64,000 nucleotides of DNA, from positions 7,378,001-7,442,000 of the forward strand of contig NC_014666.1 in NCBI RefSeq assembly GCF_000166135.1, given 5' to 3'. Of this stretch, positions 1 through 15,400 are shown in pieces. A program made the position numbers and the translations under genes. The first letter of the stretch is position 1. Every line of letters starts with the position of its first letter. This stretch comes from Pseudofrankia inefficax. Lineage in GTDB: Bacteria > Actinomycetota > Actinomycetes > Frankiales > Frankiaceae. Below the pieces are notes generated by a model. The model did no database searches. It saw only the letters and a list, made by a program, of their open reading frames with translations, and had not been told where the DNA came from.

Positions 1-515
1 GTGCCCCACTCCCGGGCCGCGGACCGGGTCATCGCAAGAATTCCTGCCTTGGAGGCCCCGTACGCACCGGTGTGCGGCGACGAGACGAGCGCACCGACGG
101 ACGACCAGTTGACCACCGAGCCTCCACCGCTCGCGACCATCGCCGGGATCGCGTATTTCATGCCGAGAAAGACGCTCTTGAGGTTGATGGCCATCAGCTT
201 GTCGAAGTCGTCCGGGTCGACGTCAGGGATCGCGGCCTGGGCCAGCCCCGCCACGCCGACGACGTTGCAGAGCACGTCCAGCCGTCCGAACCTGCTGACC
301 GATTCGACGACAAGCGCCTCCACGTCGGACGCCTGGGTGACATCCGCGTGGAACGGAACAATCGCGTCGTTGTCGGCCGCGGTGTCCTTCTCGGCGCCGC
401 TGACATCGGCAGCCACGACGAACGCGCCGTCGCGGGCCAGCCGCAGTGCCACCGCCCGGCCCTGGCCGATGCCGGCTCCCGTCACGATCGCGACTTTTCC
501 CTCAAGACGTGCCAC
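1..515 (-). CDS. short-chain dehydrogenase/reductase, 3' end cut by the window edge
   Basis: N-terminal ~171 residues of a classical SDR, an NAD(P)-dependent oxidoreductase. Visible landmarks are the Rossmann glycine motif TGAGIGQG near residues 12-19, an acidic residue after beta-2 (AADVS) that favours NAD, NVVG in place of the usual NNAG, the catalytic serine in NWSSVG and the catalytic YGASK (YxxxK). The GTG start at 515 follows GAGGAG by about 8 nt. It is the last visible gene of a minus-strand run regulator - P450 - aldehyde dehydrogenase - SDR, so it probably oxidises an alcohol made by the pathway. The C-terminal substrate lid lies outside the window, so the substrate cannot be guessed. 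Confidence 0.88.
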   Translation of the reverse strand, partial: MARLEGKVAIVTGAGIGQGRAVALRLARDGAFVVAADVSGAEKDTAADNDAIVPFHADVTQASDVEALVVESVSRFGRLDVLCNVVGVAGLAQAAIPDVDPDDFDKLMAINLKSVFLGMKYAIPAMVASGGGSVVNWSSVGALVSSPHTGAYGASKAGILAMTRSAAREWG

Positions 516-594
516 GAATGCTCCTCGGTTCTGGAACTAAGACCAGCGGCTCACGGCGCTGGGTGTCGCGGTCGGGCCCCGCGGCCTCGGGCTC

Positions 595-2058
595 TCAGAC
601 CATCGCGATGGTCTTGATCCGCTGGAACTCGGCGAGACCGTCGGGGCCGCCCTCCTTGCCATAGCCGCTGTAGCCCTGACCGCCGAACGGGCGATTGACC
701 ATGAGATTCGGAGCGCCGTTGATCATTGTCGCGCCGGCTTCGAGCCGCTCGGCGACCCGGTGCGCCCGCCGCACATCCTTGGTCTGGATGTAGGACGACA
801 ATCCGTACCGCGTGCTGTTGGCGATCTCGATCGCCTGCTCCTCGGTCGCGAACGGCATGATCGACAGCACGGGGCCGAACACCTCACTCTGACCGAGTTC
901 GGAGTGCGGATCGACGTCGGCGAAGACCGTCGGCTCGAGGAAGCTGCCGCCCGGGTGGAGACCCAGCGGGCGCCCACCGCCGGCGATGAGCCTGGCCCCG
1001 TCCTGTGTGGCCCGCTCGATCATGCCGAGGATGCGAATGGCCGCGGCTTCGTTGACCACCGGGCCGATGTCGGTGTCGGTGTCCCAGGGGTCACCGACCC
1101 GGATTCCCTTGACCAGGGCGGCGACCCGGTCGAGCGTCTCGTCGTAGATCGATTCCTGGACGAGCATCCGAGTCGGAAACGCGCAGCCCTGTCCGCTGAC
1201 CGTCGCGAGCACCCGCAGGGTGCCCCACGGGATCGCGGTGTCCAGATCGGCGTCATCGAAGACGAGGTTCGCCGACTTGCCGCCGAGTTCGAGAACGGCC
1301 GGCTTCATCTGCTTCGCGCAGGCGTGCAGGATGGCCGTCGCGGTCGCCGGGCCACCGGTGAAGGTGATCTTCTGCACGAGCGGGTGATCCACGAGGGCCG
1401 CGCCCGCCTCGACGGAACCCGGCAGCACGCTGACCACGCCCGACGGGAAACCCGCCTCGTCCACGAGGTCGGCGAACAGCTCGGCGGCGAACGGTGTCAT
1501 CTCCGACGGCTTGACGACCACGGTGTTACCCGCGGCGAGGGCCGGCGGGACCTTCATCGTCAACGAGGTCAGCGGGCCGTTCCAGGTAATGATGGTGCCG
1601 ATGACGCCGTAGGGCTGGGCGAGCGTGTAGCTGAACTCGCCGTCCGGCCCGAACGACGTGTTGACCCGGCCGGAGATCTTGTCGGCGAAGCCGGCGTAGT
1701 AACGGGTCCATTCCGTGGCGCCGCCAACCAGGCCGGACGCCGAGGTCACGGCCATTCCGTTGTCGAGGACCGCTCTGCGGGTGAACTCGTCGGCGTTGGC
1801 CTCGATGAGGTCGGCCAGGCGGAACAGCAGCCGGCGCCGTTCCGCCGGGCGCACGTCCCGCCAGACGAGGAAAGCCTCCTGCGCGAGCCGCACGGCCCGG
1901 TCGATCTCGCTGGGACCGGCCAGCGGGACGACGGCGTCAACTTCTCCGGTGCATGGGTCGATGTGCTCGAAGGTCCCCGCGGAACCGACGGCCAGCCGCT
2001 CGGAGCCGATCCGGAGATGTACCGCTGGCCTCGTCCTGTCGTACCCCGACTCCGCCAT
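595..2058 (-). CDS. aldehyde dehydrogenase family protein
   Basis: NAD(P)-dependent oxidation of an aldehyde to its acid, 487 residues, normal length for the ALDH superfamily. Seen: oxyanion asparagine in TWNGP (N160), cofactor lysine in VVKPSE (K183), FTGGPATA where the family usually has FTGS, general-base E257 in LELGGK and nucleophile C292 in GQGC. The ATG at 2058 is preceded by GGAAGG; the frame is open 18 codons further up but without a better start. It lies 40 bp after the upstream P450, which suggests one transcript in which a P450 or dehydrogenase product is oxidised further. Confidence 0.93.
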   Translation of the reverse strand: MAESGYDRTRPAVHLRIGSERLAVGSAGTFEHIDPCTGEVDAVVPLAGPSEIDRAVRLAQEAFLVWRDVRPAERRRLLFRLADLIEANADEFTRRAVLDNGMAVTSASGLVGGATEWTRYYAGFADKISGRVNTSFGPDGEFSYTLAQPYGVIGTIITWNGPLTSLTMKVPPALAAGNTVVVKPSEMTPFAAELFADLVDEAGFPSGVVSVLPGSVEAGAALVDHPLVQKITFTGGPATATAILHACAKQMKPAVLELGGKSANLVFDDADLDTAIPWGTLRVLATVSGQGCAFPTRMLVQESIYDETLDRVAALVKGIRVGDPWDTDTDIGPVVNEAAAIRILGMIERATQDGARLIAGGGRPLGLHPGGSFLEPTVFADVDPHSELGQSEVFGPVLSIMPFATEEQAIEIANSTRYGLSSYIQTKDVRRAHRVAERLEAGATMINGAPNLMVNRPFGGQGYSGYGKEGGPDGLAEFQRIKTIAMV

Positions 2059-2098
2059 CACGCCACCTTCCAGGCTGTCATTGAAATTGCCCCCGAAT

Positions 2099-3331
2099 TC
2101 ATGAACTCGCACTTCTCGGGCCCGGCGTGAACGTGATCGGAACGGCCACTGGCGCCCGGCTGAAGGTCGAGATGAACTCGATGTCGGCGCCCGGCTGCAG
2201 GCGGACGTCGTGCAGCCGCTGGACGATCGCGTCGAGCGCGACCCGCAGGTTCATCCTCGCCAGGTTGGAGCCCGCGCACCGATGGGGACCCGCGCCGAAG
2301 GCGAGATGCGGGTTCTTGGAGCGATCAAGGTCGAACACATCGGGGTCTTCGAACTCGGCCTCGTCGCGGTTGGCGGAGGCCCAGTACATCAGGACCTGCT
2401 CGCCCTGCCTGATCGCCTTCCCGCCTATCTCGGTGTCGTGGCGAGCGCAGCGGGCGATGCCCACGAAGGAGCCGTCCATCCGGAGGAACTCCTCGACGGC
2501 GTTCGGGATCAGTTCTGGCCGCTCCCGCAGCGCCGCGAGGATCTCGGGGTGCTCGCACATGCGCTGCATCGCCATTCCCAGCACGCCGGCGGTCGTCTCG
2601 AGGCCACCGAGGATCAGCAGGTGAATCGTGCCGATCACCTCCTCGGGGGTGATCGGGCGCCCCTCGATCTCGGCCCCCATCACGGCGTCGACCACATCCC
2701 CGCGTGGCCCTTCCCGCCGCCGCTTCTCGATGAACTCGGCGATCCAGCCGGCCAGCTTCATCAGGCAGTCCATCGCCTCGGGGCGGTGGACCTGTCCCGC
2801 CATCGTGGCGTACCCGTTCACCTCCTCCAGGTCCTCGGCGGGAGCGTGCAGCGCGAGGTCGAAGAACGCCAGCCCTGGGAGCGGGCGCGCGAACGCCTCC
2901 ATGAACTCGCAGGCGCCCTCCTCGATGAAACCGTCGATGAGCCGGTTCACGAGCTGGCGAGTCGGCGCCTCCCACTCACTGACCACGGCCGGCCTGAAGT
3001 AGGGATTGGTCAGCTGCCGGAACGCACGCTGCAGCGGCGGGTCGACCGTGACCGGCAGGATCTTCATCGACGGCCCCGGCGGCGCCGGCACGGTGATTCC
3101 CTCTTCCGAGGTGAAGGTCTGCCAGTCCTGGGCGACGCGCAGAACGTCCTCCTTGCGCGTCACCACCCAGAAGCCGCCGTGCTGGTCGCTGCGCGCCACG
3201 GGACACCGCGAGCGAGCCCGGGCAAGAGTCGGATGTAAGTCGCGGGCGAGCTCGGGCGCGACGGGGTCGAAGTGCTTCTCGACCCACTCGTCGTCGATCA
3301 GAGTCTGAGCTCCGGCTGACTTCTCAATCAT
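2099..3331 (-). CDS. cytochrome P450
   Basis: Soluble bacterial class I P450 of 410 residues. I-helix oxygen-activation motif GGLETT at 242-247, K-helix ExxR at E281-R284, and the heme loop FGAGPHRCAG at 345-354 with the axial cysteine C352. It would need ferredoxin and ferredoxin reductase, and neither is encoded in this window. First structural gene after the GntR regulator, 193 bp downstream of it. The start ATG has only a weak upstream GAAG. Substrate unknown; the neighbours suggest hydroxylation of a hydrophobic carboxylic acid or alcohol, which is inference. Confidence 0.95.
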   Translation of the reverse strand: MIEKSAGAQTLIDDEWVEKHFDPVAPELARDLHPTLARARSRCPVARSDQHGGFWVVTRKEDVLRVAQDWQTFTSEEGITVPAPPGPSMKILPVTVDPPLQRAFRQLTNPYFRPAVVSEWEAPTRQLVNRLIDGFIEEGACEFMEAFARPLPGLAFFDLALHAPAEDLEEVNGYATMAGQVHRPEAMDCLMKLAGWIAEFIEKRRREGPRGDVVDAVMGAEIEGRPITPEEVIGTIHLLILGGLETTAGVLGMAMQRMCEHPEILAALRERPELIPNAVEEFLRMDGSFVGIARCARHDTEIGGKAIRQGEQVLMYWASANRDEAEFEDPDVFDLDRSKNPHLAFGAGPHRCAGSNLARMNLRVALDAIVQRLHDVRLQPGADIEFISTFSRAPVAVPITFTPGPRSASS

Positions 3332-3524
3332 TCTTCACACTTCTAGGAGTCGGCAAAGGGTGCGGACGGCACTCCTTCGGCAGCCAACGGGCCAAGATCT
3401 CCCCTGGAGAAGGGGCCTCTGCCAGGTCGGCGCGCCGAGGGTCCCCACGTCGAGGCGTCACGCGTGTCCGCCACCCGTCGCGACACCCCGGGGTCACTCT
3501 CCCTGCTGGGCGACCGCCCAGCAT

Positions 3525-4241
3525 CTACGACTGTAGTGAACGCTTGCTCTCCTGGCTAGAGGCGGCATTGGTGCCGTCGGCCCGCAGCACACCGCGCCGG
3601 GTCAGCTCGTGGATGACCTGTTCGCCGGCCGCCGCGGCCTCGGCCACCCGCGCCTGCGACGCCCGCCAGGGGTCACCAGCGATGATCGCCTCGATGACCT
3701 GTCGGTGAGCGTCGACGATGTCCTCGTGGCGTCGCCGTTCGCTCTCACCCGCCGCCCAGCCGAGGAACCTGCCCTGGCCACGGAGTTCCTCCAGTAGCCG
3801 AGGGGTCGCCCCAGCCCGGTGCTGCACCCGGAGGATCTCGGTGGCCAGGTCCCTGCGACGACCGGCCAGGCCTCCGCTGTCGGCCAGCGCATCGAGAAGG
3901 CTCGTCAGCTGGTCCAGCACCTCGGGGCCACGATCCTCAGCGACGCGAGCGGCGGCGACTCCGCCGAGGTAGCCGAGGATGTGGTAGTCCGCCCGCAGGG
4001 TGCGCGCGTCGAAGTGCTGCACCAACGTCGCCCGATGCACCTGCGCCGTCACCAGGCCGTCCCGTTCGAGCAGGACGAACGCCTCACGGACGGGTGTGGG
4101 GCTGACGTCGAGGGCCGCGCTGAGCCGCTCGACGTAGATCCGGTCGCCGGACCGCAGCCGGCCCTCGAAGATCTCCCGCTGCACGTGCTCGACAACCAGA
4201 GTGCTCGTCTTCGTCCGCTGCGACCCGGATTTGATCACCAC
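3525..4241 (-). CDS. GntR-family transcriptional regulator, FCD type
   Basis: 238 residues. An N-terminal winged helix-turn-helix (about 13-72, with the recognition segment VSPTPVREAF characteristic of GntR) is followed by an all-helical FCD ligand-binding domain (about 80-215). FCD regulators are usually repressors released by an organic acid of the pathway they control. I chose the GTG at 4241, 7 nt after AGGA; a TTG at 4277 is possible but has no ribosome site. It is divergent from the amidohydrolase gene at 4369 and leads the minus-strand P450-ALDH-SDR run, so it probably controls both arms. Confidence 0.9.
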   Translation of the reverse strand: MVIKSGSQRTKTSTLVVEHVQREIFEGRLRSGDRIYVERLSAALDVSPTPVREAFVLLERDGLVTAQVHRATLVQHFDARTLRADYHILGYLGGVAAARVAEDRGPEVLDQLTSLLDALADSGGLAGRRRDLATEILRVQHRAGATPRLLEELRGQGRFLGWAAGESERRRHEDIVDAHRQVIEAIIAGDPWRASQARVAEAAAAGEQVIHELTRRGVLRADGTNAASSQESKRSLQS

Positions 4242-4368
4242 TTCGCCATCCTGGCTGCTAGGAGCGCTGCCGGTCAATAGAAAATAGAATATTGCGAGAG
4301 CCCTGAAGTGAGCGTACGCTCACCGACGCGCCAGGCAGGCGCGATCGAGCGGACGCAAGGAGGCTCCG
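4242..4368. promoter_or_regulatory. divergent promoter/operator region of the catabolic island
   Basis: 127 bp between the GntR gene and the first plus-strand enzyme. It holds one of the few AT-rich patches of the island, around 4275-4296, with two overlapping copies of ATAGAA/AATAGAAT followed by ATATTGCG. Such a patch between a FCD regulator and its divergent target is where operators and promoters normally sit. I could not define a clean palindrome. The ribosome site AAGGAGG for the downstream gene is at 4357-4363. Confidence 0.5.
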
Positions 4369-5544
4369 GTGGCCAAGCTGGCCGACGGTCTGCGAGTGAT
4401 CGACGCCGACTCGCACATGACCGAGCGTCACGATCTCTTCACGGAACGGGCGCCGAAGGGCTACGAGGATCGCGTGCCGCACGTCGAGCAGGTCGACGGA
4501 AAGCCCATGTGGGTGATCGACGGCAAGACGTTCGGCAAGGCGGGCTCGGGCGGCACTGTCGACCACGACGGGAAGAAGCACGCGTTCCGCGCGTCCCAGG
4601 GCGGGTCCTGGACCATTGACGACGTGCACCCCGCCGCGTGGGACGCGGCGGAGCGCCTGCGCCTCATGGACGAGTTGGGCATCAACGCGCAGGTCCTCTA
4701 CCCGAACGAGATCGGCATCGGCGGTCAGAACCTGCGCAACTCGGTGCGGGACGAGGTGCTGCTGCGGCTCTGCGTCGAGCTCTATAACGACGCGATGGCC
4801 GATGTGCAGGAGCAGTCGGGCAACCGGCTGCTGCCGATGCCGATCATGCCGGCGTGGAGCATCGACGACTGCGTCCGGGAGGCCCAGCGCTGCGCCGCGC
4901 AGGGCGCCCGGGGTGTCAACATGACCGCCGACCCCCAGGACTCCGGGTCGCCGGACCTCGGTGACCACGCGTGGGACCCGTTCTGGGAGGTGTGCGCGGG
5001 GCTCAACCTGCCGGTGCATTTCCACATCGGCGCCAGCCAGACGGCACTCGCCTACTTCGGCACGACCTTCTGGCCGAGCCAGGACCACTACGTCAAGCCC
5101 GCGATCGGCGGCGCCTCGCTGTTCCAGAACAACTCGCGCGTGCTGCTCAACAGCGCCTACTCGGGAATGTTCGACCGGCACCCCACCCTGCAGATGGTGT
5201 CCGTCGAGTCCGGCATCGGCTGGGTTCCGTTCATGCTCGAGGCGATGGACTACGAGTTGTTGGAGAACGCCCCCGCCTGGGCGAAGAAGCTCCAGAAGAC
5301 GCCGTCCGAATACTTCCAGAGCAACTGGTACGCCACGTTCTGGTTCGAGACCGGCCGCGGCGACCTTCAGCACCTCATCGACCAGGTCGGCGAGGACAGG
5401 ATCATGTTCGAGACCGACTTCCCGCACCCGACCTGCCTGCACCCGAGCCCGATCGAGCAGGTCAGCGACACGATCGCCACCCTGCGCCCGCAGACCCAGC
5501 TGAAGGTCATGGGCGGCAACGCGGCCCAGCTCTACCGAGTCTGA
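4369..5544 (+). CDS. amidohydrolase family 2 protein (TIM-barrel decarboxylase/hydrolase)
   Basis: 391 residues, amidohydrolase-2 fold (ACMSD / gamma-resorcylate decarboxylase relatives: metal-dependent C-C or C-N cleavage). Family-like strands seen: IDADSHMTE at the N-terminus, FHIG (metal histidine) mid-protein, VESGIGW, and the late FETDFPHP strand that carries the metal aspartate. The N-terminal motif keeps only one histidine where many relatives have HxH. The GTG at 4369 has AAGGAGG 6 nt upstream. First gene of the plus-strand run and followed by a P450; such pairs are common in actinobacterial catabolic clusters. Reaction unknown. Confidence 0.88.
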   Translation: MAKLADGLRVIDADSHMTERHDLFTERAPKGYEDRVPHVEQVDGKPMWVIDGKTFGKAGSGGTVDHDGKKHAFRASQGGSWTIDDVHPAAWDAAERLRLMDELGINAQVLYPNEIGIGGQNLRNSVRDEVLLRLCVELYNDAMADVQEQSGNRLLPMPIMPAWSIDDCVREAQRCAAQGARGVNMTADPQDSGSPDLGDHAWDPFWEVCAGLNLPVHFHIGASQTALAYFGTTFWPSQDHYVKPAIGGASLFQNNSRVLLNSAYSGMFDRHPTLQMVSVESGIGWVPFMLEAMDYELLENAPAWAKKLQKTPSEYFQSNWYATFWFETGRGDLQHLIDQVGEDRIMFETDFPHPTCLHPSPIEQVSDTIATLRPQTQLKVMGGNAAQLYRV

Positions 5545-5638
5545 CGACACCGCGACGCCGCCAGGTCTCTCCGACCTCGTGGCGTCACGGCCACGAGGCC
5601 GCGGAATGTCCGGCCTTCCGACATAGGAATCGTGATTG

Positions 5639-6835
5639 ATGATGACGACCGTCGATCCGGTCTACTGGGATCCGTACGACCCAGCCCTGGCGGCTGACCC
5701 GTACCCGACCTTCCGCCGGTTACGGGCCGAGGCGCCGCTTTACTACAACGAGAAGCACGACTTCTACGCGGTCACCCGTTTCGCCGACTGCGAGCGGGGA
5801 CTTCCGGACGCGAAGACGTTCAGCTCGGCGCGCGGCGGGATCCTGGAGCTGATCAAGTCCGGCCTGGAGATCCCCCCGGGCACGCTCATCTTCGAGGACC
5901 CGCCCACGCATGACATCCACCGGCGCCTTCTCGTGCGGGTGTTCACGCCGCGCCGGATCAGCGCACTCGAGCCGAAGGTGCGGGAGTACTGCCGGCAGGT
6001 GCTCGACCCACTGGTCGGCGAGACGCGGTTCGACCTGATCCAGGCCGTCGGCGCGGAGATGCCGATGCGGGTGATCGGCATGCTGATGGGCATCCCCGAA
6101 AGCGATCAGGCCGAGCTGCGGGACATGTTCGACAGCAAACTGCGCACCGAGAACGGCGGCCAGATGGACCTCTCCGAGGGCGCCATCCTGTCCGGTGAGA
6201 TCTTCGGCCCCTACATCGACTGGCGGAAAGAGCACCCGTCCGACGACCTGATGACCGACCTGCTCATGACCGAGTTCACCGATGAGCAGGGGGTGCGGCG
6301 GACGCTGACCCGCGACGAGGTCCTCTCCTACGTCACCATCGTGGCGAGCGCCGGCAACGAGACGACCGGTCGGCTCATCGGCTGGATCGGCTCGGCTCTG
6401 GCCCGCCACCCAGAGGCCCGGCGGGAACTGGTCGCCGACCGGTCGCTGATCCCGAACGGCATCGAGGAGATCCTCCGTCTCGAGCCGCCCGCCCCGTTCG
6501 CCGCCCGCTACGTCACCGAGGACGTCGTGTTCCACGACACGACGGTCCCCGCCGGCGCCGCCGTCATCTTCGTCCTCGCGTCGGCGAACCGGGACGAGGA
6601 ACGCTTCGACGATCCTGACCGGCTCGACATCCGCCGGCGGATCAGCCAGCAGTTCACCTTCGGATTCGGCGCCCACTACTGCCTCGGCGCGGCGCTGGCC
6701 CGGCTCGAAGGCCGCGTGGCCCTTGAGGAGATCCTCACTCGCTTCCCCGACTGGGAGGTCGACTGGGAGGTCGCGAAACTCGCGCAGACCTCCACCGTGC
6801 GCGGGTGGGAGACCCTGCCTCTCGTCATCGGGTAG
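5639..6835 (+). CDS. cytochrome P450
   Basis: 398 residues. I-helix AGNETT at 238-243, ExxR at E277-R280, heme loop FGFGAHYCLG with C348. Three start codons follow each other (TTG 5636, ATG 5639, ATG 5642); I use the first ATG, about 10 nt after AGGA. It resembles the P450 at 10591 more than the one at 2099: shared N-terminal WDPYDP/WDPFDP, the TPRR segment and the STVRG C-terminus. The two probably arose by duplication, with diverged substrate or regioselectivity. Redox partners are not in the window. Confidence 0.95.
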   Translation: MMTTVDPVYWDPYDPALAADPYPTFRRLRAEAPLYYNEKHDFYAVTRFADCERGLPDAKTFSSARGGILELIKSGLEIPPGTLIFEDPPTHDIHRRLLVRVFTPRRISALEPKVREYCRQVLDPLVGETRFDLIQAVGAEMPMRVIGMLMGIPESDQAELRDMFDSKLRTENGGQMDLSEGAILSGEIFGPYIDWRKEHPSDDLMTDLLMTEFTDEQGVRRTLTRDEVLSYVTIVASAGNETTGRLIGWIGSALARHPEARRELVADRSLIPNGIEEILRLEPPAPFAARYVTEDVVFHDTTVPAGAAVIFVLASANRDEERFDDPDRLDIRRRISQQFTFGFGAHYCLGAALARLEGRVALEEILTRFPDWEVDWEVAKLAQTSTVRGWETLPLVIG

Positions 6836-6919
6836 GCGTCCTGGCAAGTCGCGCCAGAGCCGCGCGAAGGACTCCGACAGGTCCGACAAGGCGTCGGCGG
6901 TACTAAGGACGAGGTGACA

Positions 6920-7816
6920 ATGCGTTATTTCTTTCACTATCCGGAGACCACCGGAGTCGACGGTGACATGTTCGAGCCGGGGCCAGTCGACGAGGTCGCG
7001 GTCGCGGCCGAGCGAGCCGGCTTCGAGGGCTTCGCGCTCACCGATCACCCAATTCCGGGCGCCAACTGGCTGACCTCCGGCGGCCACCAGAGCCTCGACC
7101 CGTTCGTCGGCCTCGCGTTCGCCGCGGCGGCGACCGAACGGCTGAGGCTGCTCACCCATCTCTCGGTGGCGCCGTATCGCAACCCGTTCGTGCTCGCCAA
7201 GGCCGCGGCGACCGTCGACAAGCTCTCCGGCGGACGGTTCATCCTCGGGCTCGGCGCTGGCTACCAGAAGTCGGAGTTCTTCGCCCTCGGCGTGGACATG
7301 GAAGAGCGCAACCTCCTGTTCGACGAGGCGCTCGACGTCCTTCCGCTGCACTGGAGCGGCGAGCCGTTCACCTACCGGGGCCGGCACTTCGACGCCCGGA
7401 ACGTCATCGCGCGGCCGCGGCCGGTGCAGAACCCGATCCCGATCTGGATCGGCGGCAACTCGAAGCTGAGCCGGCGGCGCGTCGCCGAGCGGGCCCAGGG
7501 CTGGATGCCGATGTCCGGGCCCCCGCAGCTGTCCACCACCGCCCGAACCGTCGCGATCAGCTCGGTGGAACAGCTCGGCAAGATGATCCAAGAGGTGCGT
7601 ACGGCAGCGGAGGAACACGGCCGCACCGAGCCGATCGACTTCCTCTACTCCTACAGCGAGATCGAGGACCCGGCCCGCGAGCCGGACCGGCACCGCGAAG
7701 CGATCGCCGAAATCGAGAAGGCCGGCGTCAACCGCCTGATGATCACCTGTTTCACCCGGGAGACGGCCGCCACGCTCGACTTCATCGAGAGCTTCGGCGC
7801 CGTCCACATCTCGTGA
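6920..7816 (+). CDS. LLM-class (luciferase-like) flavin/F420-dependent oxidoreductase
   Basis: 298 residues, luciferase-like TIM barrel. Supporting segments: early GFALTDHP, TERLRLLT, the central LSGGRFILGLGAGYQ and IPIWIGGNS, typical of actinobacterial F420-dependent members of the class. Expected role is hydride transfer with F420H2 or FMNH2, or a Baeyer-Villiger-type oxidation, on a pathway intermediate. The ATG at 6920 is used because AAGGA lies about 10 nt before it; a GTG at 6914 is too close. It lies 84 bp downstream of the P450 on the same strand. Confidence 0.88.
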   Translation: MRYFFHYPETTGVDGDMFEPGPVDEVAVAAERAGFEGFALTDHPIPGANWLTSGGHQSLDPFVGLAFAAAATERLRLLTHLSVAPYRNPFVLAKAAATVDKLSGGRFILGLGAGYQKSEFFALGVDMEERNLLFDEALDVLPLHWSGEPFTYRGRHFDARNVIARPRPVQNPIPIWIGGNSKLSRRRVAERAQGWMPMSGPPQLSTTARTVAISSVEQLGKMIQEVRTAAEEHGRTEPIDFLYSYSEIEDPAREPDRHREAIAEIEKAGVNRLMITCFTRETAATLDFIESFGAVHIS

Positions 7817-7942
7817 AGGCCCAGGTCAGGTCAAAGGTGAAGGCGCTCGGTCAGCGCAAGGCGGAGCTCCTCTAGGTCCGCGCGGCATCACAGTTTCCAC
7901 TGCCCGCGTCACGCGGGCGGCCCGTCGTCGAGAAGGAGAGGC

Positions 7943-9160
7943 ATGACGTCAGTCATGGAAGGCGTCCGCGTCCTGGAGGTCGCCGAACACACATTCGTGC
8001 CGGCGGCCTCGGCGCTCCTCTCCGATCTCGGCGCGGACGTCATCAAGATCGAACATGTCGAGCGTGGCGACGCCATGCGCGGCCTGGCCTCGACCGGAAC
8101 GGCGTTCGTCCCGAGCGACGTGCACGTCCTGCTCGAACACTCGAACCGGGGTAAGCGCAGCCTCGCGCTCGACATCGCCACGCCCGAGGGCGCCGAGATT
8201 CTTTATCAGCTCGCGGCCACCTCGGACGTGTTCCTGACCAACAAGCTCCCGCACGTCCGCGCGAAGCTGCACATCGAGGTCGACGACATCCGCGCACACA
8301 ACCCGGACATCATCTACGTGCGCGGAACAGGTCAGGGCGAACGCGGCCCGGACGCCGACAAGGGCTCCTACGACGGCCTCGCGTTCTGGGCCCGCGCCGG
8401 CGTCGCCATGGGCATCATGCAGCCCGAGCACGGCCAGGTGCCCTACCCACCGGGACCGGGATTCGGTGACTCGATCGGCGCGATGGCCATCGCCGGCGGC
8501 ATCGCGATGGCGCTCTACCACCGGGAGCGCACCAGCGAGGCCACCGTCGTCGACGTCTCGCTGCTGTCGTCCGCGATGTGGGCGATGGCCCAGGCGATCG
8601 GGCTGTCGGTCAACCTCGGCCGAGGGTGGGCGCCCCCGCCCATCGACGCCCCGCGCGGCAACCCGCTGGTCGGCACCTATCGCACGAAGGACGGCAGGTG
8701 GCTGTCGTTCAGCTGCCTGCAGGCCGCCCGTTACTGGCCGCCGTTCTGCGAGAGCGTCGGACGCGGCGACCTCGCCACCGACCCCAGGTTCGCCGACCAC
8801 TCGTCGCTGATGGCCCACAGCGACGAAGCGGCCCGCGCCGTCGGGGAGGTGATCGCGCAGCGGACCGTCGACGAGTGGCGCGACGCGCTGAAGGACTTCA
8901 TCGGCCAGTGGACCGTCGTCCAGGACACCCTCGAGGCCGCGCGCGATCCGCAGTCCATCGCCAACGGCTACCTGCAGCCGTGCGAGACCGCCGCGGGGGT
9001 GCCCTTCGAGATGGTCGCCGCGCCGGTGCAGTTCGACGAGAAACCCGCCGCCGCGGGCCGTGCGCCCGAGTTCAACGAACACGGCGACGCGATCCTCACC
9101 GATCTCGGGCTCGACTGGGAGAAGATCCTCGACCTGAAGGTGCGAGGAATCATCGCGTGA
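7943..9160 (+). CDS. CoA-transferase family III (CaiB/BaiF) protein
   Basis: 405 residues. Family III CoA-transferases move CoA between carboxylic acids through an aspartyl-CoA thioester. The N-terminal GVRVLEVAEH and LGADVIKIE segments are typical, and the likely nucleophile is D144 in GSYDGLAFW. ATG at 7943 follows GGAGAGG. This is the only CoA-activating enzyme visible in the island, so it may load a carboxylate intermediate for beta-oxidation-like steps encoded elsewhere. Donor and acceptor acids cannot be read from the sequence. Confidence 0.92.
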   Translation: MTSVMEGVRVLEVAEHTFVPAASALLSDLGADVIKIEHVERGDAMRGLASTGTAFVPSDVHVLLEHSNRGKRSLALDIATPEGAEILYQLAATSDVFLTNKLPHVRAKLHIEVDDIRAHNPDIIYVRGTGQGERGPDADKGSYDGLAFWARAGVAMGIMQPEHGQVPYPPGPGFGDSIGAMAIAGGIAMALYHRERTSEATVVDVSLLSSAMWAMAQAIGLSVNLGRGWAPPPIDAPRGNPLVGTYRTKDGRWLSFSCLQAARYWPPFCESVGRGDLATDPRFADHSSLMAHSDEAARAVGEVIAQRTVDEWRDALKDFIGQWTVVQDTLEAARDPQSIANGYLQPCETAAGVPFEMVAAPVQFDEKPAAAGRAPEFNEHGDAILTDLGLDWEKILDLKVRGIIA

Positions 9161-9230
9161 CGCCACCCGCGTTGTTCCTGGCCCGTTCTCGCCCCCATCT
9201 TGTCAGCTCGCAGCGAGAGGACACCGCCCC

Positions 9231-10499
9231 ATGCGCAAGGAAGACCTGATCCTGGTCAGCATCGATGACCACGTCATCGAGCCTCCGGACATGTACAAGA
9301 ACCACGTCCCGGCGAAATGGCTCGACGACGTTCCGAAGGTGGTCCGGAACTCCGCGGGCGTCGACGAGTGGGTCTTCCAGGGCCAGAGCACGTCCACCCC
9401 GTTCGGCATGGCGGCGACGGTCGGCTGGCCGCGCGAGGAATGGGGTTTCAACCCCGGCGCGTTCTCGGAGCTGCGGCCGGGCTGCTTCGACGTGCACGGG
9501 CGAGTCGACGACATGAACGTCAACGGCATTCTCGCGTCGATGTGCTTCCCGACGATGGCGGGTTTCAACGCCCGTACCTTCTCCGAGGCGATCGACAAGG
9601 ACCTGTCCCTCGTCATGCTCCGGGCCTACAACGACTGGCACATCGACGAGTGGTGCGCGGCCTACCCGGGCCGTTTCATCCCGCTCGGCATCGTGCCGAT
9701 GTGGGACGTCGACCTGGCGGTCGCCGAGATCAGGCGGATCGCCCGCAAGGGCTGCCGTTCGATCAGCTTCCTGGAGGCGCCGCACTCGCAGGGCTGGCCG
9801 AGCTTCCTGTCGGGCCACTGGGACCCGATGCTGCAGGCGCTCGTCGACGAGAACATGGTGCTCTCACTGCACATCGGTGGCGCGTGGGACATCGTCAAGC
9901 TGGCTCCCGAGGCGCCGGTCGACCACATGATCGTGGTGCCGTCGCAGCTGACGATGCTCACCGCCCAGGATCTGCTGTTCGGCCCGACCCTGCGCCGGTT
10001 CCCGGACCTGCGGGTCGCTCTCTCCGAGGGCGGGATCGGCTGGATTCCGTTCTACCTGGACAGGGTTGACCGCCACTTCCAGAACCAGCCGTGGATCGGC
10101 AACAGCTTCGGCGCCGGCAAGCTGCCCTCGGACGTGTTCCGCGAGCACTTCCTCGCCTGCTACATCACCGACCCCTCGGGCCTGAAGATGCGCGACACGA
10201 TCGGCGTCGACATGATCGCCTGGGAGTGCGACTACCCGCACACGGACACCACCTGGCCCGACTCCCCCGAGTTCGCCTGGAACGAGTTCCAGCAGGCCGG
10301 CTGCCGCGACGACGAGATCAACAGGATCACCTGGCAGAACGCCTGCCGGTTCTTCGACTGGGATCCGTTCGCGCACAGGTCGCGGGAGGACTCGACGGTG
10401 GGAGCGCTTCGTGCCCTCGCCGCGGGCGTCGACACCACGAGGATGCCGCGCGAGCAGTGGCGTCTACGCAACGAAGCCGCCGGCATCGGCGTTTTCTGA
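9231..10499 (+). CDS. amidohydrolase family 2 protein, second copy
   Basis: 422 residues, same superfamily as the gene at 4369 but only distantly alike. N-terminal strand reads SIDDHVIEPP (DDH instead of DxHxH), then LSLHIGG (metal His), LSEGGIGWIPF and ECDYPH, the late acidic metal-ligand strand. Two amidohydrolases in one run suggest two different hydrolysis or decarboxylation steps rather than redundancy. GAGAGG at 9215-9220 precedes the ATG by 10 nt. A 17-bp tandem repeat follows directly after the stop codon. Confidence 0.87.
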   Translation: MRKEDLILVSIDDHVIEPPDMYKNHVPAKWLDDVPKVVRNSAGVDEWVFQGQSTSTPFGMAATVGWPREEWGFNPGAFSELRPGCFDVHGRVDDMNVNGILASMCFPTMAGFNARTFSEAIDKDLSLVMLRAYNDWHIDEWCAAYPGRFIPLGIVPMWDVDLAVAEIRRIARKGCRSISFLEAPHSQGWPSFLSGHWDPMLQALVDENMVLSLHIGGAWDIVKLAPEAPVDHMIVVPSQLTMLTAQDLLFGPTLRRFPDLRVALSEGGIGWIPFYLDRVDRHFQNQPWIGNSFGAGKLPSDVFREHFLACYITDPSGLKMRDTIGVDMIAWECDYPHTDTTWPDSPEFAWNEFQQAGCRDDEINRITWQNACRFFDWDPFAHRSREDSTVGALRALAAGVDTTRMPREQWRLRNEAAGIGVF

Positions 10500-10500
10500 G

Positions 10501-10568
10501 CTCCACCGACTTCGGAGCCCCACCGACTTCGGAACTGCACCGACTTCGGAGCCCCATCGACGCTCGCC
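10501..10568 (+). repeat. 17-bp tandem repeat in the 10.5 kb intergenic gap
   Basis: Three near-identical units (CTCCACCGACTTCGGAG, CCCCACCGACTTCGGAA, CTGCACCGACTTCGGAG) and a degenerate fourth (CCCCATCGACGCT...) fill the space between the amidohydrolase stop and the P450 ribosome site AGGAAGG at 10576. Each unit carries the core CACCGACTTCGG. It could be a slippage minisatellite or a cluster of protein-binding sites; nothing in the sequence decides. Confidence 0.85.
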
Positions 10569-10590
10569 CCGAGACAGGAAGGTCCGAGAA

Positions 10591-11775
10591 ATGACGGACT
10601 TAAAGTGGGACCCGTTCGACCCGGTCGTCGACGTCGACCCTTACCCGGTCTGGCGCCGTATGCGTGACGAGCAGCCGCTGTACCGCAACGACGAGTACGA
10701 CTTCTTCGCGGTCTCCCGGCACGCCGACGTCGACGACCTGCACCGCGACACGAAGACCTACAGCTCGAAGTACGGGACCCTGCTGGAGATCATGGGCAAG
10801 GACCCGATCCCGCCGGGCTTCCTGATCTTCTCCGACCCACCGGTCCACAACATGTTGCGGACCTTGGTGTCGCGGGCCTACACCCCGCGGCGCGTCGGCG
10901 GGCTGGAGGGCCAGGTCCGTGAGCTGGCCGCGGAGTTGCTGGACCGCCAGATCGGCGGAGGCGGTTTCGACTACGTCCAGGACTTCGCCGCGCAGCTTCC
11001 CTCGCTGGTGATCTCCGCGCTGATCGGGGTGGACCCCGCCGACCGCGAGGAGGTCCGACGGACGATTGACCTCTGCTTCCACATCGAGGAGGGCAAGGGA
11101 ACGCTCAACGAGATCTCCCTCGGCGCCTCGGCCCGGCTGCGCGCGTACTTCGCCGACCAGATCCAGGAACGTCGCGCGAGACCCCGGGACGACATGATGA
11201 CGGCGCTCGTCGAGGCCGAGGTCAAGGACGGCGACACCACCCGCCGCCTCACCACCGCCGAGGCCGCGACGCTCACCAACGAGATGGTCAGCGCCGGGAC
11301 CGAGACCGTCGCCCGGCTGCTCGGCTGGGCCTGCCTGCTGCTCGCGGCCCATCCGGACCAGCGCGCCGCCCTGGCCGCCGATCCGACGCTGCTACCCAGC
11401 GCGGTCGAGGAGACGCTGCGGTTCGAGGCGCCGTCCCCGGTGCAGGGACGCACGGTCATGGCCGATGTCGAGCTCTACGGGACGAAGGTGCCCGCCGGCT
11501 CGCACATCCTGCTGCTCACCGCGTCGGCTGGGCGGGACGAGCGCAAGTACGACGATCCCGACAGTTACGACATACATCGGCGCTTCGACAGTCACGTCTC
11601 ATTCGGCCACGGCGCCCATTTCTGCCTCGGCGCCTCGCTCGCGCGGCTGGAGGGGCGGGTCGCGCTCGAGGAGACCCTGCGCCGGTTCCCGACCTGGGAG
11701 ATCGACCAGGACAGGGCCGTGCGGCTGCACACCAGCACGGTTCGCGGCTACGAAAAGCTGCCGATCCTGTTCTGA
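10591..11775 (+). CDS. cytochrome P450
   Basis: 394 residues. The I-helix reads AGTETV at 235-240, so the second threonine of the usual (A/G)GxxTT is valine. ExxR at E274-R277; heme loop FGHGAHFCLG with C345. ATG at 10591 is 8 nt after AGGAAGG. A longer reading frame starts at 10411 but overlaps the amidohydrolase and is rejected. Paralogue of the P450 at 5639. The altered I-helix may shift oxygen activation or substrate contacts, which is inference. Confidence 0.95.
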   Translation: MTDLKWDPFDPVVDVDPYPVWRRMRDEQPLYRNDEYDFFAVSRHADVDDLHRDTKTYSSKYGTLLEIMGKDPIPPGFLIFSDPPVHNMLRTLVSRAYTPRRVGGLEGQVRELAAELLDRQIGGGGFDYVQDFAAQLPSLVISALIGVDPADREEVRRTIDLCFHIEEGKGTLNEISLGASARLRAYFADQIQERRARPRDDMMTALVEAEVKDGDTTRRLTTAEAATLTNEMVSAGTETVARLLGWACLLLAAHPDQRAALAADPTLLPSAVEETLRFEAPSPVQGRTVMADVELYGTKVPAGSHILLLTASAGRDERKYDDPDSYDIHRRFDSHVSFGHGAHFCLGASLARLEGRVALEETLRRFPTWEIDQDRAVRLHTSTVRGYEKLPILF

Positions 11776-11849
11776 CCCGCCTCGCTGCCCGAGCAATGAC
11801 AGAAGCGACGATTTTTCGGTTTCACAATCGAGGGCAGGGCGGAGAAGCA

Positions 11850-12956
11850 ATGAAAGTGCTGGTGGTAGGAGGCACCGGGCCTACCGGACCGCACGTGCTC
11901 GACGGCCTGCTGCGGCGCGGCGACGAGGTCACGATCTTCCATCGGGGCACCCACGAGCCAGCGGGACTGCCCGATGTCGAGCACCTCCACGGCGATCCCC
12001 ACTTCCGCGCGTCGATCGACGACGCGATCGGCGCGCGGACGTTCGACGTCGTGGTGGCCATGTATGGCCGGCTGAAGCATCTGGCGCCGGCGCTGGCCGG
12101 CAGGTGCGACCAGTTCGTCGCCATCGGTGGGGTGCCCGTGTACCAGGGGTTCTTCCCGGACCCAGGTCAGAGCCCGCTACCGGTTCCAGTCACCGAGGAG
12201 CACCCGGTCGTCGTCGACGGCGCGGGCGGTGCCGAACTGGCCTTCTCCAGGCGCCTCGCCGACGCCGAGACGGCCGTCTTCGCGCATCATCCGCGGGCGA
12301 CCGTCCTGCGCTTCCCGACGCTGTTCGGGCCGAACAACGCGCGGCCGGCCGAGTGGTCGGTCATCAAGCGGGTGCGCGACCGGCGGCCTTTCCTGATCCT
12401 TCCCGACGGCGGCCATCAGATCCACACCCGGTGCGCCGCCGCGAACGCGGCCGCGTTCGTGCTCGCGGCCCTGGACGCGCCCGAAGCGGCCGCCGGCCAG
12501 GTCTACAACGCGGGCGAGGCGACAAGCTGGTCGTTCCGGGACTGGGCCACCACGATCACCCGGCTCCTCGGGCACGACCTGGAGCTGGTCTCCGTCCCCC
12601 GAGCGATCGCCATCGAGGCGACCACCTCGCTGCTCCCTCTGGCCGGCACCACGGCGACGCACGTCGTCGTCAGCACCGAGAAGGCACGCCGCGAGCTGGG
12701 TTACACCCCCGCCGTCGACCCACTCGACGCGATGGCCGAACTCGTCGCCTGGTACGACGACCACCCCGATTTCGACCCGGCCGCCAGCCCGTCCTTCACC
12801 GACCGGTTCGACTACACGACGGAGGACGCCCTGCTCCACCATTACCGGGCGGCCACGCGGCAACTGGCCAAGGTAGTGGAACAAAACGCCGCCCCGCCCA
12901 TTCACAGCATGCCTCATCCACAAAGGCCCGGCGAAGTCGACCACCGCGGCCGCTGA
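11850..12956 (+). CDS. NAD-dependent epimerase/dehydratase-like extended SDR
   Basis: 368 residues. N-terminal Rossmann motif MKVLVVGGTGPTG is that of extended or atypical SDRs, followed by FGPNN and the VYNAGE C-terminal region found in epimerase/reductase relatives. I do not see a clear YxxxK, so it may be an atypical SDR with altered or lost catalysis. ATG at 11850 follows GGCGGAG; the upstream ATG at 11796 lacks a site. Role in the island probably reductive or isomerising. Confidence 0.82.
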   Translation: MKVLVVGGTGPTGPHVLDGLLRRGDEVTIFHRGTHEPAGLPDVEHLHGDPHFRASIDDAIGARTFDVVVAMYGRLKHLAPALAGRCDQFVAIGGVPVYQGFFPDPGQSPLPVPVTEEHPVVVDGAGGAELAFSRRLADAETAVFAHHPRATVLRFPTLFGPNNARPAEWSVIKRVRDRRPFLILPDGGHQIHTRCAAANAAAFVLAALDAPEAAAGQVYNAGEATSWSFRDWATTITRLLGHDLELVSVPRAIAIEATTSLLPLAGTTATHVVVSTEKARRELGYTPAVDPLDAMAELVAWYDDHPDFDPAASPSFTDRFDYTTEDALLHHYRAATRQLAKVVEQNAAPPIHSMPHPQRPGEVDHRGR

Positions 12957-12976
12957 ATTCTGGTCGACCACCGCGG
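12936..12976 (+). repeat. 14-bp direct repeat pair across a gene end
   Basis: GTCGACCACCGCGG occurs at 12936-12949 and again at 12963-12976. The pair brackets the stop codon of the epimerase-like gene, so the last codons look duplicated into the spacer. Probably a small local duplication. Confidence 0.8.
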
Positions 12977-13095
12977 AACAGCGCGCGGCGCATTCGATCC
13001 CGGGCATTCCTTTTCCCCTGCCCTCGTGCCGAGCAGAACGTCCGCTCACAGGCGCCGGCCGTCCGGCATATTTCGCCACCATGAATGGAGATATT

Positions 13096-14346
13096 GTGAT
13101 TCGTCAGCGCAGAATCGTGCTGGGAGCCGCGGCCACCGCCGCGGCGATGCTCTTAGCCGCCGGGTGCGGTTCCTCGAAGTCGGGCGGCACCCCTGGCGGC
13201 GGCGACCAGGCCGCGAAGCAGACCATCACGGTCGGCGTGCTCGCCGACCTCACCGGCGCCGCCGCGTCGGGCAACAAGACCGTCGTCGACGGCGTCAAGG
13301 CCGGGACCGTCTACGCGTCCCGCAACGGCTACACGATCAAGTACATCGTCGCGGACACCGCGACCAATCCCACCACCGCCCTGGCGGCCGCGCAGAAGCT
13401 CGTCACCCAGGACCATGTGTTCGCGGTCATCGGCCAGTCGGCGCTGTTCTTCGCCGCCGCCCCCTACCTCACCGCGCACAACGTCCCGGTGGTCGGGATC
13501 AGCGAGGACGGTCCCGAGTGGGCGACCTCGAAGAACATGTTCTCCGTCATCGGGGCGCTGCAGAACACCAAGGTCGCCGAGACGACGGGCAAGCAGCTCA
13601 AGCTGCTGGGCGTCACCAACTTCGCGACGCTCGGCTACTCGGTCTCCCCCAGCTCGTCCGAGGCCGCCAGCTCCAACGCGGTCTCGGCCGAGACCGCGGG
13701 CATCAAGGTCGGCTACCTGAACGCGAAGTTCCCCTTCGGTAGCACCGACGTGACCACGGAAGTCCTGGCGATGAAGAAGGCCGGGATCAACGGGTTCATG
13801 GCCACGGTCGACCCCAACACGGCCTTCGCGCTGATCCAGGGGCTGCGCACGCAGGGCGTCAACCTGAAGGCCGCGCTGCTTCCCACCGGCTACGGCGGCG
13901 ACCTGTTCCAGGCGGGTCCCGGCGCGCTGCAGGAAGCCCAGGGCGTCTATTTCACTCTCGGCTTCGAGCCGGTCGAGATGCAGACCGCCGCGACCAAGCA
14001 GTTCGTGAGTGACCTGACCAGCGCCGGCATCAAGACCGAGCCCACGTTCGCCAGCTACATCGGGTACACGTCCATCGGGCTGCTCGTCCAGGCGCTCCAG
14101 ACCGCGGGCAAGAGCGCTACCCCAGCCTCGGTGCTCACCGCCCTGTCCGGCATTCACAAGTTCACCGCGATGGGCCTCTTCGGAACCCACTCCCTGGACA
14201 TCAACGACCGGGAGAACATCGTCCAGGGGGCTGACAACTGCTCCTGGCTCGTCCGGCTCGAAGGCAGCGCCTTCAAGCTCGTCGACGGGGGCGAACCGAT
14301 CTGCGGCGCGGTCATCCCGGGCAAGACGGTCAAGCCGGCGACCTGA
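13096..14346 (+). CDS. ABC-transporter solute-binding lipoprotein, Leu/Ile/Val-binding (periplasmic-binding type 6) family
   Basis: 416 residues. A basic start, hydrophobic stretch and lipobox LAAGC put the mature N-terminal cysteine on the outer face of the membrane. The rest (TVGVLADLTG..., AVIGQSALFF, VGISEDGPEW) is the type I binding fold used for amino acids, amides and aromatic acids. I use the GTG at 13096, 6 nt after GGAG, since it gives a normal signal peptide; the ATG at 13081 has no ribosome site. No permease or ATPase genes are adjacent, so it works with a transporter encoded elsewhere or acts as a sensor. Likely captures the island's substrate. Confidence 0.9.
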   Translation: MIRQRRIVLGAAATAAAMLLAAGCGSSKSGGTPGGGDQAAKQTITVGVLADLTGAAASGNKTVVDGVKAGTVYASRNGYTIKYIVADTATNPTTALAAAQKLVTQDHVFAVIGQSALFFAAAPYLTAHNVPVVGISEDGPEWATSKNMFSVIGALQNTKVAETTGKQLKLLGVTNFATLGYSVSPSSSEAASSNAVSAETAGIKVGYLNAKFPFGSTDVTTEVLAMKKAGINGFMATVDPNTAFALIQGLRTQGVNLKAALLPTGYGGDLFQAGPGALQEAQGVYFTLGFEPVEMQTAATKQFVSDLTSAGIKTEPTFASYIGYTSIGLLVQALQTAGKSATPASVLTALSGIHKFTAMGLFGTHSLDINDRENIVQGADNCSWLVRLEGSAFKLVDGGEPICGAVIPGKTVKPAT

Positions 14347-14370
14347 TCGGACCGGCGCTGAGCGACGCGA

Positions 14371-14405
14371 GCCGCGCCCGTTCGCAACATTCGGACGGGC
14401 GCGGC
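14371..14405 (+). terminator. stem-loop terminator after the solute-binding protein gene
   Basis: Perfect 11-bp inverted repeat (GCCGCGCCCGT / ACGGGCGCGGC) around a 13-nt loop, 25 bp past the stop codon. There is no long T run, as usual for actinobacterial hairpins. Confidence 0.7.
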
Positions 14406-14500
14406 TTCCGTGTCGCCCGCGGGTGTGCCCGCAGTCGGCCAGACCGGATCTCGACCCGTGAGTAATCCAGGAGCACGACCAATTCTGAGGAGTACATGCC

Positions 14501-15400
14501 GTGGCGTCGACTTTTGATCTCGGCCTCGTGGGCAAGGCCGCGGTGGTCACGGGAGCGGGTGCCGGCATCGGGCAGGCCATCGCGCGCGGGCTGGCCGCGG
14601 CCGGAGTGCGCGTCGGGCTCGTCGAGATCGATCCGAGCCGGGCAGCGGCGTCCGCCGAGCTGATCGCGAAGGAGGGCGGCACGGCTCTCCCCCTGCAGGC
14701 GGACGTCATGGACACCGCGGCGCTCGGCGCGGCCATCACCGCGGCCCACGCCGAGTTCGGCCGCCTGGACATCCTGGTGAACAATGCCGGCGGCGTGAAG
14801 GGGACCCGGTTCCTCGACCAGAGCGAGCGGAGCTGGCGCCGGCACATCGACATCAACCTCGTCAGCATGCTGGCCGCGACCGCGACGGCGGCCCCGCTGA
14901 TCGCGCGGACCGTCGCCGCGTCCGGCCCGGTCAACGCCTCTCGCCGTAGCGGTGGGTCGATCGTCAACATCACCAGCATCGAGGGCACCCGCGCCGCCCC
15001 GATGTTCGCCGTCTACGCGGCCTGCAAGGCTGGAATGATCAATTTCACCCGCACGATGGCGCTGGAGCTCGCCGAGTCCGGCATCCGCATCAACGCGCTC
15101 GCGCCCGACGTGACCGCGACCGCCGGCCTGCGCGGCATCATGCACGGACCGGTCGACCCCGATGCGCTGCCCGCGCCCGCTCCCGGGCTCTTCCCGGGAC
15201 TCGACCGTTACGTCCCGCTGGGCCGGGAGGGGGTCGCGGCCGAGATCGCGGACGCCGCGGTCTTCCTGTGCTCCGACCAGGCCGCCTACATCACCGGCAC
15301 CACCCTGAGCGTGGACGGCGGAACCGCCGCCTCCGCCGGCTGGCTCCGCTCCGGCGCCGGCTGGACCCTCCAGGGCGAACAGTCCGGCGCCGGAGCGTAG
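14501..15400 (+). CDS. short-chain dehydrogenase/reductase
   Basis: 299 residues, classical SDR: TGAGAGIG cofactor loop, NNAG, catalytic serine in NITSIEG, catalytic YAACK, and a C-terminal TGTTLSVDGG typical of the family. Slightly long, with extra residues before the serine strand and after the TGTTL motif. GTG at 14501 is 8 nt after TGAGGAG. Separated from the preceding gene by a hairpin, so it may have its own promoter. Last enzyme of the plus-strand run. Confidence 0.92.
   Translation: MASTFDLGLVGKAAVVTGAGAGIGQAIARGLAAAGVRVGLVEIDPSRAAASAELIAKEGGTALPLQADVMDTAALGAAITAAHAEFGRLDILVNNAGGVKGTRFLDQSERSWRRHIDINLVSMLAATATAAPLIARTVAASGPVNASRRSGGSIVNITSIEGTRAAPMFAVYAACKAGMINFTRTMALELAESGIRINALAPDVTATAGLRGIMHGPVDPDALPAPAPGLFPGLDRYVPLGREGVAAEIADAAVFLCSDQAAYITGTTLSVDGGTAASAGWLRSGAGWTLQGEQSGAGA

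Follow-up and report, generated by a model that had tools for sequence, protein, structure and literature searches.

We analyzed a 64,000-nucleotide stretch of the Pseudofrankia inefficax genome (positions 7378001–7442000 of a single 8,815,781-bp contig; hereafter, the window) and studied the gene island at its left end, in which two divergent arms flank one GntR/FCD regulator and two proteins labeled as amidohydrolases, AhyA and AhyB, belong to the family PF04909. Frankia is a soil and plant-nodule bacterium. From its sequence, AhyB is predicted to be a dinuclear C–H monooxygenase and not a C–C/C–N hydrolase; AhyA, judged by the same kind of evidence, is a distinct Thr sub-type of the dinuclear-oxygenase family. 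The hydrolase label on both proteins should be replaced. For the island as a whole we lean, with some reservation, toward a GntR-controlled catabolic system in which a hydrophobic acid, as its coenzyme A (CoA) thioester, would be hydroxylated by heme and non-heme enzymes.

Two PF04909 Proteins with Dinuclear Monooxygenase Relatives

According to PMC10811679, the PF04909 dinuclear oxygenases, or AROs, include PtmU3, AibH2, and SfbO. The two PF04909 genes of the island are as follows:

4369..5544 (+), ahyA, PF04909, ARO-like, six metal ligands, Thr355 replacing the acidic residue
9231..10499 (+), ahyB, PF04909, DitZ-type predicted dinuclear monooxygenase (DitZ match, residues, tree)

A preliminary description of this DNA had assigned C–C/C–N cleavage to both, as amidohydrolase-2 proteins. 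Their sequences, ligand residues, and tree positions point instead to dinuclear monooxygenase relatives, and for AhyA the fold does so as well. Fold evidence was restricted to AhyA, the AhyB model being poor (predicted local distance difference test [pLDDT] 56.7; four rows) and left unused.

PMC7782822 gives the metal ligands of AibH2 as Asp25, His27, His211, Glu265, Asp337, and His340 and describes an acidic residue two positions after the last His (AibH2 Asp342, PtmU3 Glu313) as kept only in two-metal members. AhyB (PF04909, E = 5.7e-29) contains all seven AibH2/PtmU3 residues, with the ligand set D12, H14, H214, E266, D334, and H337 and the acidic D339; a check of the alignment register placed PtmU3 Glu313 at AhyB Asp339. 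Among solved structures, its top match was DitZ of Rhodococcus rhodochrous (PDB 8uyr, titled as manganese-substituted; E = 1e-139), followed by PtmU3 (1.6e-32).

DitZ and PtmU3 were also the first and second structure matches of AhyA (4e-29 and 7e-24). Its six ligands are D14, H16, H219, E280, D350, and H353, and the seventh place holds Thr355 and no acidic residue. We compared AhyA loci from 80 places in other genomes, all retrieved by AhyA similarity and including close relatives. Each ligand was retained in 78 to 80 of the 80 homologues, the remainder being unreadable, and Thr stood at the seventh place in all 78 that could be read there (2 of 80 unreadable). The Thr-bearing homologues span from Frankiaceae to Acidimicrobiia and a deltaproteobacterial metagenome-assembled genome (MAG), and AhyA is the most widely kept enzyme of the island. 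Its structure model (pLDDT 76, predicted template modeling score 0.83) matched DitZ best (Z = 40.0), then PtmU3 (35.6) and a functionally unassigned M. avium protein (35.1); the SfbO/AibH2/TruffO enzymes followed at 31.2–32.5 and decarboxylases at 30.3 or below. Because Thr replaces the acidic second-shell residue, AhyA may be mononuclear or carry out other chemistry.

An obligate partnership of AhyA with AhyB, in the fashion of AibH1–AibH2, was considered and rejected as a general rule because AhyB is absent from the Frankia nepalensis and Parafrankia-type islands and because 63 of the 80 AhyA loci lacked an AhyB-like match; some loci, however, are truncated by contig ends. AhyA (57%) and AhyB-like (33%) genes occur together on one contig whose title, that of a Bifidobacterium breve MAG, is probably erroneous.

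The PF04909 Family across the Genome

We translated and aligned every one of the genome's 73 PF04909 matches. The six ligands were combined with Glu at the seventh place in 31 proteins, Asp in 21, Thr in 6, Ala in 1, and Val in 1, and the six-ligand set was lacking in 13, one of them only partly aligned. The full dinuclear signature was present in 52 of the 73, compared with ~64 cytochrome P450 (P450) genes (71 match rows).

We inferred a maximum-likelihood tree for the 60 ligand-bearing proteins together with DitZ and PtmU3. The 21 Asp-type (D-type) proteins and DitZ formed one branch (100/100), the six Thr-type (T-type) proteins another (97/93), and PtmU3 branched with two Glu-type (E-type) proteins (97/92). 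AhyA probably descends from oxygenase-type ancestors, since the T-type branch falls together with DitZ and PtmU3 on one side of the root (91/92, branch unstarred), the root being a midpoint root placed for drawing only. AhyB E266 and AhyA E280 are both Glu in a column where three HxH-type paralogues of the genome have His; His at this place may be a trait of PF04909 decarboxylases such as ACMSD.

Within the family, a DitZ-type gene at genome positions 3850782–3851702 (–) contains a single in-frame TAG in an otherwise conserved frame. The E-type genes at 5631501–5632358 and 4053709–4054566 are near-identical (branch lengths 0.004 and 0.015) and probably reflect a recent copy.

CoA-Related Neighbors of PF04909 Genes

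We counted partner genes within 5 kb of PF04909 genes and compared the counts with a null in which each gene was shifted by 15–150 kb in 2,000 trials; the 16 comparisons are uncorrected, and second-piece rows (7 of 71 for P450, 3 of 63 for the CoA-transferase III family, CaiB) were excluded. A CaiB gene accompanied 12 of the 21 D-type genes, against a shift mean of 2.8 and with none of the 2,000 trials as high; for E-type genes, the count was 7 of 31 (mean 4.0, 149/2,000 as high). Acyl-CoA dehydrogenase genes were found beside 6 of 21 D-type genes (138/2,000) and beside 15 of 52 when D and E types were taken together (6/2,000). A P450 gene lay near three of the six T-type genes (24/2,000) and 5 of 31 E-type genes (510/2,000).

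Six annotated plasmid regions contain AhyA/AhyB relatives, and in five of them (Massilia, Sphingopyxis, Rhodococcus DK180, Sphingobium RAC03, and R. opacus PD630), the 15-kb flanks hold CoA-metabolism genes: CoA ligases, CoA-transferases, acyl-CoA dehydrogenases, or thiolases. The sixth, in Sphingobium WTD-1, has ring-hydroxylating oxygenases in their place. Among four mycobacterial plasmid regions, CaiB and thiolase genes stand beside amidohydrolases in two; the third has an amidohydrolase next to a P450 and a ferredoxin, without CaiB or thiolase, and the fourth contains a relative of CypB and no annotated amidohydrolase.

Gene Content of the Island

Families were called by Pfam scans of the window frames with E up to 0.001. 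The scans recovered every gene named in the preliminary description where it had placed them, and the gene map bore out its picture of a single FCD regulator with a divergent arm on each side. Both arms diverge from the gntR–ahyA spacer. The left arm consists of gntR, cypA, aldh, and sdrA, followed by a MaoC-like gene beyond the window edge; the right arm consists of ahyA, cypB, llm, caiB, ahyB, cypC, epi, sbp, and sdrB. The genes besides ahyA and ahyB are as follows:

L009:17197-17691, MaoC-like/FAS1_DH gene, left of the window after sdrA
1..515 (–), sdrA, short-chain dehydrogenase (SDR), PF13561/PF00106; continues left of the window, full gene L009:17763-18515
595..2112 (–), aldh, aldehyde dehydrogenase (ALDH), PF00171, E = 9e-150
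2099..3331 (–), cypA, cytochrome P450, PF00067 family match
3525..4277 (–), gntR, GntR/FCD regulator, PF00392 and PF07729
5636..6835 (+), cypB, cytochrome P450, PF00067, 46% identity to cypC
6914..7816 (+), llm, F420-dependent-type luciferase-like oxidoreductase, PF00296 and TIGR03619
7943..9160 (+), caiB, class III CoA-transferase, PF02515, E = 3.4e-86
10591..11775 (+), cypC, cytochrome P450, PF00067; inferred start, frame opens at 10411
11796..12956 (+), epi, NAD-dependent epimerase-like protein, PF01370, E = 7.5e-9
13081..14346 (+), sbp, Peripla_BP_6 solute-binding lipoprotein, PF13458, E = 2.1e-62
14501..15400 (+), sdrB, short-chain dehydrogenase, PF13561, E = 1.5e-54

No gap between right-arm genes exceeds 154 bp, and a single transcript is therefore possible; gntR and cypA are 193 bp apart. 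All three P450s contain the heme-Cys motif F..G.H.C.G and the [AG]G.ET motif. The closest solved structure to CypA is an ancestral CYP125 reconstruction, followed by CYP101, with P450cin lower down. Llm scored 273.1 bits against the F420-dependent model TIGR03619 (curated cut-off 166.9), and the Sbp translation has a lipobox-like LAAGC.

The preliminary description had noted the lack of a thiolase, an acyl-CoA dehydrogenase, and a ring-cleavage dioxygenase, and we likewise found no match to these among the scanned frames of positions 1–15400. Families absent from the island are abundant genome-wide, with 94 match rows for acyl-CoA dehydrogenase, 32 for Rieske proteins, and 53 for thiolase, 18 of the latter strong and many of the weak ones inside giant frames. 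The island gene set contained no permease.

G+C content is ~66–72% in the tract that holds the island (7362–7398 kb) and mostly 72–77% on either side. The protein encoded at 15909–17543 (+), 508 bp beyond sdrB, has a DMFA2_C domain (N,N-dimethylformamidase beta-like) and a hydrophobic stretch at its N terminus; it is probably outside the island. The right edge of the low-G+C tract coincides with a tmRNA gene (18663–19035, –). Integration at the tmRNA was considered and is unsupported: the island side showed no long copy of the tmRNA 3' end, and the best match to that end (24 nt, 92%) lies at ~41 kb of the window, on the side opposite the island.

Conservation of the Island in Relatives

The preliminary description regarded orthologues scattered in relatives and never found together as evidence against an island; in relatives, we found genes of the set together. 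In Frankia sp. AgB1.9, 13 genes are collinear at 91–98% identity, in the order maoC (left of the window in P. inefficax), aldh, cypA, gntR, ahyA, cypB, llm, caiB, ahyB, cypC, epi, sbp, and sdrB; the maoC–aldh interval showed no sdrA. In F. nepalensis CN7, seven genes (maoC, gntR, ahyA, cypB, llm, caiB, and cypC) are present at 79–90%, up to a contig end. A genome of the Parafrankia soli genus (G008, locus L046) retains nine genes at 62–86%, namely cypA, gntR, ahyA, cypB, llm, caiB, cypC, epi, and sdrB, the last cut by the end of the stretch; its extras are an SDR, a Rieske ring-hydroxylating oxygenase, a MaoC protein, and an aldo/keto reductase. Farther away, an Acidimicrobiaceae MAG carries, on one strand, ahyA (64%), LLM, GntR, and a further PF04909 gene and then relatives of AhyB (78%), CypB (59%), and CaiB (47%). 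At an AhyA locus of Thermomonospora echinospora, genes resembling cypA and aldh stand together with those for a Rieske ring-hydroxylating oxygenase and a ketoacyl synthase.

We compared the surroundings of the 80 AhyA loci with those of 53 other PF04909 loci of the P. inefficax genome, counting homologues of at least 50% identity; the 13 comparisons are uncorrected, and the controls come from one genome and are not taxon-matched. A cypA homologue was near AhyA in 14 of 80 loci versus 1 of 53 controls (p = 0.004), gntR in 12 of 80 versus 0 of 53 (p = 0.002), and cypB in 10 of 80 versus 2 of 53 (p = 0.08). As far as these homologues indicate, the stable core is the divergent gntR–ahyA pair, often with cypA, and the other genes appear exchangeable; because enrichment near AhyA is limited to gntR and cypA, we regard the rest as modular and not as a fixed pathway. 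The "catabolic island" of the preliminary description is partly supported, by the divergent arms and the collinearity in relatives; the near-whole set occurs only in AgB1.9 and is partial in F. nepalensis and the Parafrankia-type genome.

Candidate Regulatory Elements

Two elements were identified at the divergent promoter region:

4275..4294, AT-rich interrupted inverted repeat CAAT...ATTG, candidate regulatory element
4308..4323, perfect 16-bp palindrome, candidate operator of the divergent promoter

Allowing one mismatch, the 14-bp core of the palindrome occurs at two places in the 8.8-Mb genome, each before a gntR–ahyA pair, the second belonging to a paralogous pair at 6.18 Mb; the reversed pattern had zero genome matches. 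With up to two mismatches, the core was found in 10 of 13 gntR–ahyA spacers (L164, L166, and L169 lack it). No further copy with up to three mismatches was present in the window, and so none stands before cypA, sbp, or sdrB. The palindrome fits a dedicated local operator, as candidate, because it is confined in the genome to gntR–ahyA pairs and has no other copy in the window. The CAAT...ATTG element is the sole window match at up to three mismatches, and 11 of the 13 aligned spacers contain one like it. The second gntR–ahyA pair (genome 6183726–6184646), 69% and 81% identical and with the same palindrome, showed no match to any other island gene in the 20-kb stretch that was covered.

A Model of the Island and Its Alternatives

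We infer a catabolic direction and the following order of steps. Both arms would be expressed from a single divergent promoter under GntR/FCD control, with the binding lipoprotein Sbp mediating uptake of the acid and CaiB, as a class III transferase, moving it onto CoA. The three P450s and AhyB would then hydroxylate unactivated C–H bonds, AhyB acting as a DitZ/PtmU3-type dinuclear non-heme monooxygenase on the CoA thioester. The oxygenated skeleton could be oxidized, reduced, or hydrated by the ALDH, the SDRs, the epimerase-like Epi, the F420-type Llm, and the MaoC-like hydratase, while C–C cleavage and beta-oxidation would be left to enzymes encoded outside the island. Our guess for the substrate is a terpenoid- or alicyclic-type acid, by analogy with PtmU3, the name of DitZ, and the P450 matches.

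Several results weigh against this model. Neither AhyA, AhyB, nor DitZ has, to our knowledge, an assigned activity. The gene set is not constant: in F. nepalensis CN7, ahyB is absent between caiB and cypC, and a Peripla_BP_6 gene replaces cypA and aldh between maoC and gntR, and the Parafrankia-type island is without ahyB and aldh. In the comparison of 80 and 53 loci, the ten remaining partner genes showed no enrichment near AhyA, and sbp was rarer there (2 of 80 versus 8 of 53). P450 genes were found within 5 kb of 4 of the 21 D-type genes, which is not significant (440/2,000 shifts as high). A small Rieske protein gene adjoins AibH2-like enzymes in 90% of cases, according to PMC10401708, a feature described for the AibH2-like subgroup and not stated for PtmU3; such a gene had no match in the island, and Rieske matches within 5 kb were limited to 2 of the 21 D-type genes and 1 of the 31 E-type genes. 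On the regulatory side, a sigma-70 scan found no promoter, and at three mismatches within the window alone the palindrome is at the level of chance, 43 of 100 shuffles having one.

Three other explanations were weighed. That AhyA and AhyB are ordinary mononuclear decarboxylases or hydrolases, for example of the gamma-resorcylate or ACMSD kind, seems unlikely to us. They share the Pfam family with such enzymes, solved decarboxylases appear among the lower-ranked matches, for AhyA only ~1 to 2 Z units under the SfbO/AibH2 group, and AhyA is without the acidic residue, as is the mononuclear AibH1 (PMC7782822). Yet DitZ and PtmU3 head the sequence matches of both proteins and the fold matches of AhyA, and AhyB and AhyA carry Glu (E266, E280) where the three HxH-type paralogues have His.

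A somewhat less likely alternative is that the island is biosynthetic and serves terpenoid or polyketide tailoring, like PtmU3 in platensimycin biosynthesis. Natural-product clusters also hold P450s and a PtmU3 relative, and the degradation sequence within the island is incomplete, but no polyketide synthase or terpene cyclase was found in the scanned island frames or in ten frames reaching ~14 kb to the left, the scans extending rightward to ~18.5 kb of the window; moreover, the solute-binding lipoprotein and the GntR/FCD regulator suit uptake and catabolism, and relatives are located among CoA-degradation genes. Least probable, in our judgment, is a loose collection in which genes of frequent families were joined by chance and drift. 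The genome is rich in catabolic paralogues (~64 P450, 73 PF04909, and ~60 CaiB genes), enrichment around AhyA concerns gntR and cypA alone, and gene order and content vary. Against it stand the thirteen collinear genes in AgB1.9, nine at 62–86% in the Parafrankia-type genome, and the single-strand series of ahyA, LLM, GntR, PF04909, ahyB, P450, and CaiB relatives in the Acidimicrobiaceae MAG.

A broader extension of the catabolic model, which we consider doubtful, is that PF04909 constitutes a second oxygenase arsenal, about the size of the P450s, hydroxylating CoA thioesters, and that AhyA founds an invariant-Thr sub-type with a new reaction, in island pathways needing no ring-cleavage dioxygenase. 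Genes labeled as amidohydrolases recur in the actinobacterial catabolic regions examined; if most of them were acyl-CoA dinuclear monooxygenases, many seemingly incomplete islands without ring-cleavage enzymes would become readable. The fixed Thr-for-acid sub-type would offer a clean test of the role of the acidic residue in metal count and O2 chemistry.

Comparison with Known Systems

Among the top-ranked titles and abstract openings (at most 20 per search) of the open-licence literature, we found no paper on DitZ, nothing on the island, its gene combination, or PF04909 in Frankia, and nothing on the island under diterpenoid catabolism with amidohydrolase or EuI1c P450. The mycobacterial plasmid P450–CoA regions resemble the island in having P450, amidohydrolase, CaiB, ALDH, SDR, and thiolase neighbors in varying combinations, whereas the island is without its own thiolase, ligase, ferredoxin, and acyl-CoA dehydrogenase.

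AibH1H2 of Rhodococcus wratislaviensis and SfbO have the ligands D, H, H, E, D, and H in common with AhyA and AhyB. Unlike AhyA, AhyB keeps the acidic seventh residue of the AibH2-type AROs, while AhyA resembles the mononuclear AibH1 in being without it. AhyA differs from AibH1 in mostly having no neighboring AhyB-like gene (17 of 80 loci have one, some loci being cut by contig ends), and the island differs from the AibH1H2/SfbO systems, with their AibH2-like Rieske neighbor, in carrying no Rieske ferredoxin gene. PtmU3 (PDB 6omp), a diiron monooxygenase of platensimycin biosynthesis, shares with AhyB the PF04909-type TIM barrel and matching ligands and is said in PMC7782822 to take CoA-ligated substrates; unlike AhyB, it is biosynthetic and clusters with E-type proteins. 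DitZ is the closest counterpart of AhyB among solved structures: its alignment with AhyB extends over residues 1–415, the seven metal-site residues are identical, both proteins have a C-terminal extension, and the two share a tree branch (100/100).

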